From an uncultured Bacteroidia bacterium (GTDB taxonomy: Bacteria; Bacteroidota; Bacteroidia; JACCXN01): DNA of 37,095 nt. Below the pieces are notes generated by a model. It was not told the origin of the DNA, searched no databases, and saw nothing but the letters and a program-made list of their open reading frames with translations. The stretch covers positions 1 through 37,095 of the forward strand of contig CALKJP010000076.1 in assembly GCA_937995645.1 (NCBI GenBank), in the 5' to 3' direction. Shown in pieces: positions 21,214 through 26,642 of this stretch. The position numbers were made by a program, and so were the translations under genes. The stretch's first letter is position 1; each line of letters starts with the position of its first letter.

Positions 21214-24200
21214 TTGAAAAAAATTACTTACATATTAGTTTTTATTTTTGCTTTTCTCGCTGCAAACGTTGAACTATTTGCACAGCAATGGAGTATCCCT
21301 TATATCTCAAATTATTCCCCTAAAATATATGACGCAGGCTCAGATAATTGGGCTATTATACAAGATAAAAGAGGAGTAATGTATTTTGCTAACTCAGCAG
21401 GGGTTTTGCAATATGATGGAACCAGATGGGAATTATTCCCAGTAAAAAATATGTCAATTGTAAGGTCATTAGCAATTGATGGTAAGGGTAAAATTTATGT
21501 TGGTGCTGTTGGAGATTTTGGGTATTTACAATCAAATCAACAAGGTCGATTAGAATATATTTCTCTTGTTGACTTATTGCCTGAAAAAGAAAGGGGGTTT
21601 TCTGAGGTTTGGAAAACTCATGTCGTTAACAATACTATATATTTTCAAACTTTTGATAAAGTTTTTATTTATGAAGATAATAAAATCGAAATTATTTATC
21701 CTGAAAATCTTTTTCACTTATCGTTTAAAGTTAAAGATGAAATATGGATTATAGACAGAGGCATAGGATTAAAGAAGATTGTAAATAAGAAAATTTCTTT
21801 ACTACAAAATGGAGAGGTTTTTAATAACGATAAAATTTATGCAGTCTTACCATATTCAAAAAATACATATTTAGTAGCCACATTTAATGACAATCTACAA
21901 CTTTTTAATTCATTTTCAAGTAAGCCAGATTCTGTACTTATTAAGTATAAAACAAATGCAGAAGAATATTTTAATGCTACGGGAATATACAATGCAATTG
22001 TGTTGGATGATAATACCTTCGCAATAGGAACACTCGGAGGAGGAATTGTAATTTTAGATAAGTCCGGAGTTGTTAAAAATATATTTTGTAAATCTAACGG
22101 ATTACAGGATGAAGCAACCTATTATCTTTACTTAGATAATAATAATATACTTTGGTCAAGTTTTAGTAAAGGAATTTCAAAATTAGAATACAATTCGCCT
22201 ATTGCCTGGTATAATGATGTTAATGGTATAAATGGAAGAATCCAATCTATTTTACATTATCAAAACAAATTGTATTTAGCAACAAGTCAAGGAGTATATT
22301 ATCAATCTGCTTTTGATGAAAACATAATTATTAAATCAAAAGAAGATATTGATAAGTACATAAAACGTTTTAAATTAATACCAGAGATTTCAACTCAAAG
22401 TTGGTGGTTGTTTAAAACACAAAAAAACGGGAAAGATTATAAAATGTATGCTGCATCAAATAAAGGAATATTTGAGTTTGAAAATGACATGATTAAACAA
22501 ATAAGCAATTTATATACTTATTGCCTTTACATATCGGATAAAAATCCCAATGTTTTATATGCAGGAACAGCAAATGGTTTAGCTATTTTAAAAAATGAAA
22601 ATGGGCAATGGAAAGATTATGGATTTGTTGACGGTGTGAGCCCTGGAATTAGAAGTATTGCCGAAGATAAATATGGTGATATCTGGTTAGGGATACCTTT
22701 TGAAGGAGTTTCTAAAGTCTCTGTTAACAATAGCATTTCAAAAAATAATTCAACATTAAATAAGTCATATTTTGTTCATAAGTTTGATTCTACAAGTGGT
22801 TTGACAGATTATAGATATGATGTGGTGTTTAAAATAGATAATGAAATTTTAATCGGTACTTATGTCGGACTATATAAATGGGACTATGAAAAAAAACATT
22901 TTAAAAAAGAGACTCGATTTGGAGAAAAATTTTCAGATGGCTCAAGACAGGTTTATTTTTTAGCAAAAGGATTGGATAGCACTTATTGGTTTTTTAATGC
23001 AAATGAAAAATTAAAAGAAACAGGTGTTGTATCATTAAAATATGAACAACCAATATGGTATGACATTCCCTTTAAAAGATTTTCAGGAAGCCTAATCGAT
23101 TATATTTATGAAACACCTGATAGAAGAATTTGGTTTGGCGGACAAGACGGTTTAATTGTTTTTAATAGTAAGTCAAAAAAAGATTACAATAAACCATTTT
23201 ATAACATCATTTCAAAAATTACAATTGCTAAGGATTCTTTGCTTTTTGGTGGAGTTTTTCTTTCCTCAAATAATGAAATTCTACTAAATCAATCAAATGA
23301 AAATATAAATCAACACGAATATCAGTTTAATTCATTTACTTTTGAATTTTCATCGATAAGTTTCGAAGATGAAAAAAATAATCGCTATAAATGGTTTTTA
23401 GAAGGGTATGATAATGAATGGACAAACTGGACAAATGAATCAAAGGTTAGCTATACCAATTTGCCTGAAGGTAGATATACCTTTCATCTAATTTCAAAAA
23501 ATATTTATGATGTAGAAAGTGAAGAAACCATTTATTCATTCATTATTCTTCCACCTTGGTATAGAACTGTGTATGCCTATATTGCATATATTTTATTGTT
23601 TGTCGGATTTGTATATGGCGCTATTCAATTATCGATATACAGATTAAAGCGTTCAAAAGCTCAACTTGAATTAATTGTACAGGAACGCACTGCAGAAATT
23701 GTACAACAAAAAGAAGAAATTGAAATTCAAAAAGAACTGGTTGAAGAAAAAAATAAAGATATTACCGATAGTATAAATTATGCCAGCAAAATTCAGCAGG
23801 CTATTCTTCCTATACTCGATGAAATAAAAGAAGTACTTCCCGAATCCTTTGTTTTTTATAGACCTCGCGATATCGTAAGTGGCGATTTTTATTGGTTTGT
23901 TACAAAAGGTAAAGATGTATATATAGCTGCTGCTGATTGCACCGGTCATGGTGTTCCGGGCGCTTTCATGAGTATGATTGGTCATACACTTTTAAATGAA
24001 ATTTTAAATGAAAAAAATATTACCTCAACCGGAGAAATTTTAACCGAATTGCATAAGCAAATTCGTATATCTTTAAAACAAGACCAACAGGAGTCGCGCG
24101 ATGGAATGGATATTGCTTTATGTAAAATTAATGTTGAAACACTAATATTGCAATATAGCGGAGCTATGCGTCCTTTATATATTATCTCAAATAATGATCT

Positions 24201-24510
24201 TTTGGAAATTAAAGCCGATAAATATCCAATTGGAGGCTTACAAGATAATGATGAAAAACGCGTGTTTAATTCAAATGAAATACAATTAAAAAAAGGAGAT
24301 TTATTTTATATCTTCTCTGATGGATATGCCGATCAGTTTGGTGGGAAAGATGGCAAAAAGTTTATGGTTAAACGCTTAAAAGAACTATTGCTGCAGGTTG
24401 CCCCGTACGATATGAACTATCAATACACTCAAATAGTAAATAATTATATTGAATGGCTTGGCGATGGTGAACAAATAGATGACATTCTTTTTATTGGTGT
24501 TAGAGTTTAA
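21214..24510 (+). CDS. Secreted/membrane sensor: two-component-type beta-propeller + Y_Y_Y domain + TM + coiled coil + SpoIIE/PP2C serine phosphatase
   Basis: TTG start, signal peptide MKKITYILVFIFAFLAANVELFA; propeller-like repeats (WAIIQDKRGVMYFANSAGVLQYDG, GDIWLGIPFEGVSKV, IWFGGQDGLIVF); Y_Y_Y-like RYKWFLEGYDNEWTNWTNESKVSYTNLPEGRYTF; TM; SpoIIE motifs SGDFYWF, ADCTGHGVPGAFMS, RDGMDIALC, FSDGYADQFGG, QIDDILFIGV. Confidence 0.93.
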   Translation: MKKITYILVFIFAFLAANVELFAQQWSIPYISNYSPKIYDAGSDNWAIIQDKRGVMYFANSAGVLQYDGTRWELFPVKNMSIVRSLAIDGKGKIYVGAVGDFGYLQSNQQGRLEYISLVDLLPEKERGFSEVWKTHVVNNTIYFQTFDKVFIYEDNKIEIIYPENLFHLSFKVKDEIWIIDRGIGLKKIVNKKISLLQNGEVFNNDKIYAVLPYSKNTYLVATFNDNLQLFNSFSSKPDSVLIKYKTNAEEYFNATGIYNAIVLDDNTFAIGTLGGGIVILDKSGVVKNIFCKSNGLQDEATYYLYLDNNNILWSSFSKGISKLEYNSPIAWYNDVNGINGRIQSILHYQNKLYLATSQGVYYQSAFDENIIIKSKEDIDKYIKRFKLIPEISTQSWWLFKTQKNGKDYKMYAASNKGIFEFENDMIKQISNLYTYCLYISDKNPNVLYAGTANGLAILKNENGQWKDYGFVDGVSPGIRSIAEDKYGDIWLGIPFEGVSKVSVNNSISKNNSTLNKSYFVHKFDSTSGLTDYRYDVVFKIDNEILIGTYVGLYKWDYEKKHFKKETRFGEKFSDGSRQVYFLAKGLDSTYWFFNANEKLKETGVVSLKYEQPIWYDIPFKRFSGSLIDYIYETPDRRIWFGGQDGLIVFNSKSKKDYNKPFYNIISKITIAKDSLLFGGVFLSSNNEILLNQSNENINQHEYQFNSFTFEFSSISFEDEKNNRYKWFLEGYDNEWTNWTNESKVSYTNLPEGRYTFHLISKNIYDVESEETIYSFIILPPWYRTVYAYIAYILLFVGFVYGAIQLSIYRLKRSKAQLELIVQERTAEIVQQKEEIEIQKELVEEKNKDITDSINYASKIQQAILPILDEIKEVLPESFVFYRPRDIVSGDFYWFVTKGKDVYIAAADCTGHGVPGAFMSMIGHTLLNEILNEKNITSTGEILTELHKQIRISLKQDQQESRDGMDIALCKINVETLILQYSGAMRPLYIISNNDLLEIKADKYPIGGLQDNDEKRVFNSNEIQLKKGDLFYIFSDGYADQFGGKDGKKFMVKRLKELLLQVAPYDMNYQYTQIVNNYIEWLGDGEQIDDILFIGVRV

Positions 24511-24516
24511 GCATAT

Positions 24517-26642
24517 ATGAATAAAGTACTCTCCTTCTTTTTTACAGTTTTTTTGTTTATATATATTGCTTTTTATTTTCACAAAATAAAAGCGATGCAG
24601 ATTCTTTGCAAGAATTATTAAAAAAGAATTTACATGACACAGTTAGGCTTCAAGTACTAACCGATTTACATTGGGCCTATATTAATTCAGAAATTGAAAA
24701 AGCTAAAGATATAGCAATCAAGGAAATCAATCTGGCTGAAAAAATTAAAAATGAAAAATGGATTGCACAAGGATATAATGATTTAGGTATAGTTTTTTAT
24801 AAAATAGGTAATATTGACAGTGCCTTGTATTATTACAATAAATCATTAGAAATACGTAAAAAGTTAAACGAACCTAAACTTCTCTTTTCATCATACAGCA
24901 AAATTGGTTTAATTTATTATGAAAAAGGTTTATTTGCTGATGCCATAAAAATTCAATTAGAGGCTTTAAAAATTATTGAAATGTTAGGCGACTTACGTTA
25001 TAAGGCCATGACCTATAACAATATAAGCCAAATATATCACCAATTGAAGAATTATGATAAGGAATTAGAATATTTATTAGAGGCAGAAAAAATATATAAT
25101 CAAATTAATGATGAATATGCTGCAGCAGCCACATGGTCAAATATTGCAAATGTAATTTCTCTAAAAGGCGATTATCAAAAATCGTTTCAGTATTTAAATA
25201 AATCATTAAAAGTTTACGAAAAACATAATGATAAATTATCAATAGCAGGGATTTATAGTTTAATGGGATATAATTACAGAAATTTTAAAAAAAACGATGA
25301 AGCATTAAAATATTATTTAAAAGCATTTGAATTATCGAATCAATTAAATAATAAAATTGACATTGCCTTAAATGCTCATAATATCAGTTGCGTATATTCC
25401 GATTTAGGCAGATATGATTTAGCCGAAAAATACAGCCTCATTTCAATGAATAATGTTGGAGAAGATAATTTAAAACAACAATCAATGATATACCGGCAAT
25501 TAGCAATTATTTATGCCAACTTGAAAAATGGTAAAAAAGCTGAGAAGTACATAATAAAATTTAATGATGTAAAAGAAAAAATTTTTAGCGATGAATTTGC
25601 CCATCAAATTGCCGAAGTTGAAACCAAATACGAGAGCGAAAAAAAAGAATTGCAAATTTTAAATCTTCATAAACAACAAGAATTAAAAGATTTAACCATT
25701 TCTAAACAAAAAACACGAAATAAATATTTGATCTTATTAATCATTTGTCTTTTAATAATTGCAGGCATTATTTTTTATGCATTCAGAAGCAAAGCCAAAG
25801 CCAATAAAATAATTTTATTGCAAAAACAAGAAGTTGAAAATCAAAAAGCCATTATAGAAGAAAAGAATAAAGAAATAGTAGACAGTATAAATTACGCAAG
25901 AAGAATTCAAAATGCAATTTTAACATCTGATAACGAATGGAAAAAAATCAGCAACCAATATTTTATTATATACATGCCCAAAGATGTTGTAAGCGGTGAT
26001 TTTTACTGGGCTATTCAATTAGATAATAATTTATCAATTTGGGCGGTAGCAGATTGTACAGGGCATGGTGTTCCGGGAGCTTTAATGAGTATGATAGGAA
26101 ATAGCTTGTTAAACGAAATAGTTGTTGAAAACAAAATTTATAAACCTGATGAAATTCTCAATAAACTTCGCGAGAAATTAATAAAAGCATTAGAGCAAAA
26201 AGGGGAAAGCCAAAATAGAGATGGAATGGATATTGCATTATGTGTTTGGGATAAAAATAATAATACTTTATACTACGCTGGAGCAAATAATCCGGTTTGG
26301 ATAATAAGAAAAAAGAATGAATATAAAGAATATGATCTTATAGAATTAAAACCCGATAAAATGCCTGTTGGATTGCATACAGGAGAATTAAAACCATTTA
26401 ATGTTCAAACATTTAATTTGAATTATGGTGATAGTATTTATGCATTTACCGATGGATTTTCTGATCAATTTGGCGGTGAAAAGGGGAAAAAATATAAATA
26501 CAAAAATTTTCAAGCAATCTTGTTGGAAAATGCTGATAAGTCAATGCAGGAACAGTCAGAAATTATTAAAAATGAGTTTTATAATTGGAAAGGTAATTTA
26601 GAGCAAATTGATGATGTTTGTATAGTTGGTATTCGTGTGTGA
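24517..26642 (+). CDS. TPR-repeat + TM + coiled coil + SpoIIE/PP2C serine phosphatase; signal-peptide segment (24517-~24554) is one frame off from the main ORF (24606-26642)
   Basis: Main frame has multiple TPRs, TM LILLIICLLIIAGIIFYAF and SpoIIE motifs SGDFYWAI, ADCTGHGVPGALMS, RDGMDIALCV, FTDGFSDQFGG, QIDDVCIVGI. ATG 24517 encodes MNKVLSFFFTVF in frame +1; after a -1 shift at T7 (24548-24554) it continues as FVYIYCFLFSQNKSDADSLQELLKKN. Confidence 0.85.

Follow-up and report, generated by a model that had tools for sequence, protein, structure and literature searches.

A TPR-SpoIIE phosphatase gene of an uncultured Bacteroidia bacterium with its signal peptide one frame off, probably through a copy-specific one-base lesion

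A TPR-SpoIIE gene of an uncultured Bacteroidia bacterium, whose nearest ATG and leader lie in one reading frame and whose remaining protein lies in another, raises the question of whether the frame change is a device of gene control or an accident of this copy. The window, meaning the whole stretch of DNA analysed (37,095 nucleotides), is the entire contig C76 of a 2.35-Mb metagenome-assembled genome (MAG; 207 contigs, 86% complete) with named relatives among the Bacteroidota. As read from its ORFs, a tandem pair of SpoIIE-domain genes sits downstream of a ribosomal-protein operon and carA, both genes on the forward strand. The first (21214–24510) encodes a two-component propeller / Y_Y_Y / SpoIIE protein that starts at a TTG and has its own in-frame leader. 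The second is the gene in question, with a main open frame of 705 codons (24525–26642). It carries tetratricopeptide repeats (TPR_12, 24690–25340, E 1.8e-37), a single likely membrane span identified by eye (YLILLIICLLIIAGIIFYAF, 25725–25782) and a complete SpoIIE / PP2C-type phosphatase domain free of internal stops (26043–26639, E 1.3e-23 to 2.6e-22). Repeats and phosphatase domain follow one another in a single frame, and the body is stop-free over 678 codons. This is the domain order common to Bacteroidota proteins of the TPR, membrane span and SpoIIE (PF07228, PP2C-type) kind, which carry a leader before a DSLxxLL..DT motif and with which the gene also shares the SIxYAxRIQ linker ahead of a complete SpoIIE domain; in contrast to them, its start codon and leader are out of frame.

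Direct reading of the 5′ end bears out the arrangement given in the preliminary description. The nearest ATG (24517, frame 1) opens a short frame (24517–24621, forward strand) that encodes the beginning of a signal peptide and ends at the TAA at 24619–24621, while the frame of the TPR-SpoIIE protein runs open from 24525 onwards. Within the latter, the first ATG, GTG or TTG is TTG 24606, ATG itself does not appear until codon 152, and upstream of 24606 there is no ATG, GTG, TTG or CTG; the long ORF thus has no ATG start, as had been stated. A net change of one base would be enough to fuse the signal peptide with the TPR-SpoIIE protein, and the fused peptide proposed for a −1 slip at T_TTT_TTG (24549–24555) had been translated correctly.

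Does the out-of-frame leader belong to this gene? Because hardly any further genomes exist for the genus and order, homologues were taken at the level of the class, from class-level genome searches, the genus of a second genome (G334) and eight named genome contigs. Removal of the window's own gene, present as three fragments among 125 sequences, left 122 unique homologues whose ORFs are complete at the 5′ end. Of these, 117 open with an in-frame ATG, GTG or TTG and then a hydrophobic leader, as scored by a simple hydropathy test rather than by a trained signal-peptide predictor, whereas the window's gene offers only TTG 24606 and a leaderless frame; we therefore describe it as a broken copy and not as an intact member of the family. 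The out-of-frame leader lies exactly where the relatives have theirs, and the same motif follows it (for example MMRLFFTVIFFLLLNALFSQNRRKVDSLIKLSKTAHDT in the homologue L059 and FSQNKSDADSLQELLKKNLHDT in the window), a fit that goes beyond chance. By this homology, the predicted signal peptide is that of the TPR-SpoIIE gene, one frame off, in keeping with the earlier proposal of an exported N-terminus. The nearest relatives found are about 40% identical, with no near-identical intact copy among them, and a phylum-wide search at E 1e-110 returned the window's own gene only.

The same comparison bears on whether the gene might simply be intact, with TTG 24606 or a rare codon as its start and no signal peptide. 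TTG starts do occur in the MAG, the gene immediately upstream of the TPR-SpoIIE gene being one example, and an annotation would call the ORF from this TTG (24606–26642), as a leaderless and seemingly cytosolic phosphatase. By homology that call is wrong. The preliminary description had named homologues starting leaderless at the equivalent of TTG 24606 as an observation that would count against it, and the homologues instead bear leaders in the proportion given above; moreover, an abandoned leader ending in FSQNK is still legible immediately upstream, the open frame ahead of 24606 lacks every common start codon, and a protein without leader would keep its TPR part inside the cell. We regard a leaderless start as the least likely of the readings weighed here. 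Apparently start-less ORFs elsewhere in the MAG, considered as parallels, mostly proved to have GTG or TTG starts.

We then asked where the frame changes. The preliminary description had placed the slip at the T7 run (24548–24554, forward strand), which contains the T_TTT_TTG heptamer, and this placement found no support. No stop codon intervenes when the frames are joined at any point between 24525 and about 24615, and the T6 run at 24538–24543, the T5 run at 24570–24574 and the T4 run at 24576–24579 serve equally well. Codon likelihood slightly favours the T5-A-T4 stretch (24570–24579, forward strand), with 4.3 at 24570–24573 and similar values over 24567–24573, against 2.3 at the T7 run; this gap of about 2 nats is too small to decide the position. 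Nor can the position be read from how the fused peptide looks, since T-rich DNA is hydrophobic in all frames.

Two forms of gene control were weighed for the T7 run. One is programmed −1 ribosomal frameshifting at T_TTT_TTG, aided by a hairpin, which would set the amount of exported phosphatase. As in known programmed −1 frameshift genes (dnaX, IS transposases), a slippery heptamer of the X_XXY_YYZ form lies in the zero (ATG) frame and a hairpin lies downstream, here an imperfect A/U-rich structure of −8.5 kcal/mol (24564–24597, forward strand) that starts 8 nt past the heptamer and is matched in only 2.2% of cases when the 50-nt stretch is shuffled. The fold of the 101-nt stretch, however, gives a z of only −0.94, and equally stable downstream folds occur at 103 of 823 TTTTTTR sites of the same genome (12.5%) and in 13% of random windows, so that the hairpin appears unexceptional for this genome. 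Heptamers of this kind are, in addition, expected from the composition of T-rich leaders. In genes with programmed ribosomal frameshifting, orthologues share both the frame change and its direction (PMC3711429), whereas the homologues of the window's gene are in frame without slippage, which sets it apart from the dnaX and transposase cases.

One homologue, L104 in genome G334, also has an ATG displaced by one frame and a T_TTT_TTC heptamer, and was considered as another instance of the device. We rejected it, given that its closest sister-genome homologue (L191, 66% identical) is in frame and that G334 holds other scattered breaks. Three TPR-SpoIIE paralogues of that genome are frameshifted at three different places, namely at the out-of-frame ATG (L104/L190), near codon 78 (L161/L218) and within repeats (L245); the sister-genome homologues of L161 (L219, 72%, and L220, 70%) are in frame, and the three 19–20-kb stretches of G334 that were covered otherwise look intact. 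Scattered, copy-specific breaks of this sort are what indels or errors produce. We consider programmed frameshifting in the window's gene very unlikely, and more unlikely still its specific form, in which a −1 frameshift inside the signal peptide, peculiar to this lineage, would make some rounds of translation yield an exported membrane phosphatase and the others an aborted peptide and so dose one paralogue. A separate kind of interruption is seen in the TPR-SpoIIE homologue L109, which has a single in-frame TAA right before its SpoIIE domain.

The other form of control is a T run that toggles the gene on and off by phase variation or by slippage during transcription. This would fit a homopolymer at the 5′ end of a gene from a large paralogous family, and a shifted leader within a short tandem repeat does occur in one homologue, L110. 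Yet T7 is short and common in this genome (235 kb contain 289 A/T runs of seven and a further 110 that exceed this length), it is not conserved among the homologues, and the shift need not be located in it at all; we consider phase variation of the window's gene very unlikely. In L110, at about position 1476, the leader (MFLIPLYLIPYTSLAQQNKIDSL..) is out of phase with the body inside a CTCGTCT-like tandem repeat, and this homologue is a better candidate for phase variation than the gene studied here.

Of the four causes proposed at the outset, programmed frameshifting and a phase-variable poly-T tract thus drew no support from conservation, tract length or RNA structure, while an assembly error and an inactivating indel stood. 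We conclude, with a probability of roughly 86%, that this is an ordinary gene for a TPR-SpoIIE membrane phosphatase with a net one-base lesion in the signal-peptide region, copy-specific and not programmed, and due to an error in the consensus or to an indel that inactivated the gene recently. The lesion would leave the remainder of the gene out of frame with its start codon and leader. It is isolated, with the body and the homologues intact; a body without further decay implies that a real lesion would be recent. Between a recent inactivating indel, possibly at strain level, and a consensus error of the metagenome assembly, the odds are about equal. Antonov et al. (PMC3711429) put unclustered, homology-validated frameshifts down to sequencing errors or recent indels, and the singleton frameshifted genes of their GeneTack survey likewise show an isolated frame change that homologues do not share in a gene that is otherwise open; no difference between these and the window's gene could be shown. 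The case looks like a commonplace mutation of recent date or an error of the assembly, and not like novel gene control. Our literature search found no paper on frameshifts in TPR-SpoIIE genes.

If the base count is true, this gene, one of many paralogues in an expanded family of sensor phosphatases, would have been inactivated recently. Translation from ATG 24517 would then end after 34 codons, and a start at TTG 24606 would yield a protein without export signal, whose TPR sensor part would miss the periplasm, leaving the copy dead or mislocalised.

We also looked for frameshifts elsewhere in the MAG by running a codon-based frame model on 406 kb and checking its calls by eye. In calibration the model found 78 of the 100 single-base deletions that had been simulated, and it called nine changes inside unmodified ORFs; it takes TTG 24606 as a start and so does not call the window's gene, which means that lesions near a start can be missed. 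Nearly all of the frame changes called (26 + 8) proved to be chance calls or to mark gene boundaries. A single further frameshift is clearly intragenic; it lies in a TPR gene on contig C198 (L075, about position 690), where one base is missing at an A5 run (LLYYNLSSMYYK / KDYQKSYEYAMKAY), in the same direction as in the window. Many of the contigs covered had been picked for TPR genes, so the shared family of the two frameshifts supports no conclusion.

Paralogues on C175 and C198 that seemed broken at the SpoIIE boundary turned out to belong to a phosphatase-less class of TPR proteins, six copies of which in the MAG end in ..YAKRIQxALLxSExYIExxLKRLxN*, where the SpoIIE domain would start. On the given strand, these ends lie at L071 149 (−), L072 309 (+), L075 1260 (+), L078 608 (−), and L079 3293 and 4616 (−). 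On C175 (L078), a separate SpoIIE ORF (METQTATETKPFFIFYKPKD..) directly follows the phosphatase-less TPR gene. An identical stretch (..LKRLKN*TSLTAACCYFIAIFAPVNFMNTSAENTKKRIAIL) stands behind different TPR genes in L071 and L079 (contigs C74 and C25), which suggests a duplication or strain heterogeneity in the assembly.
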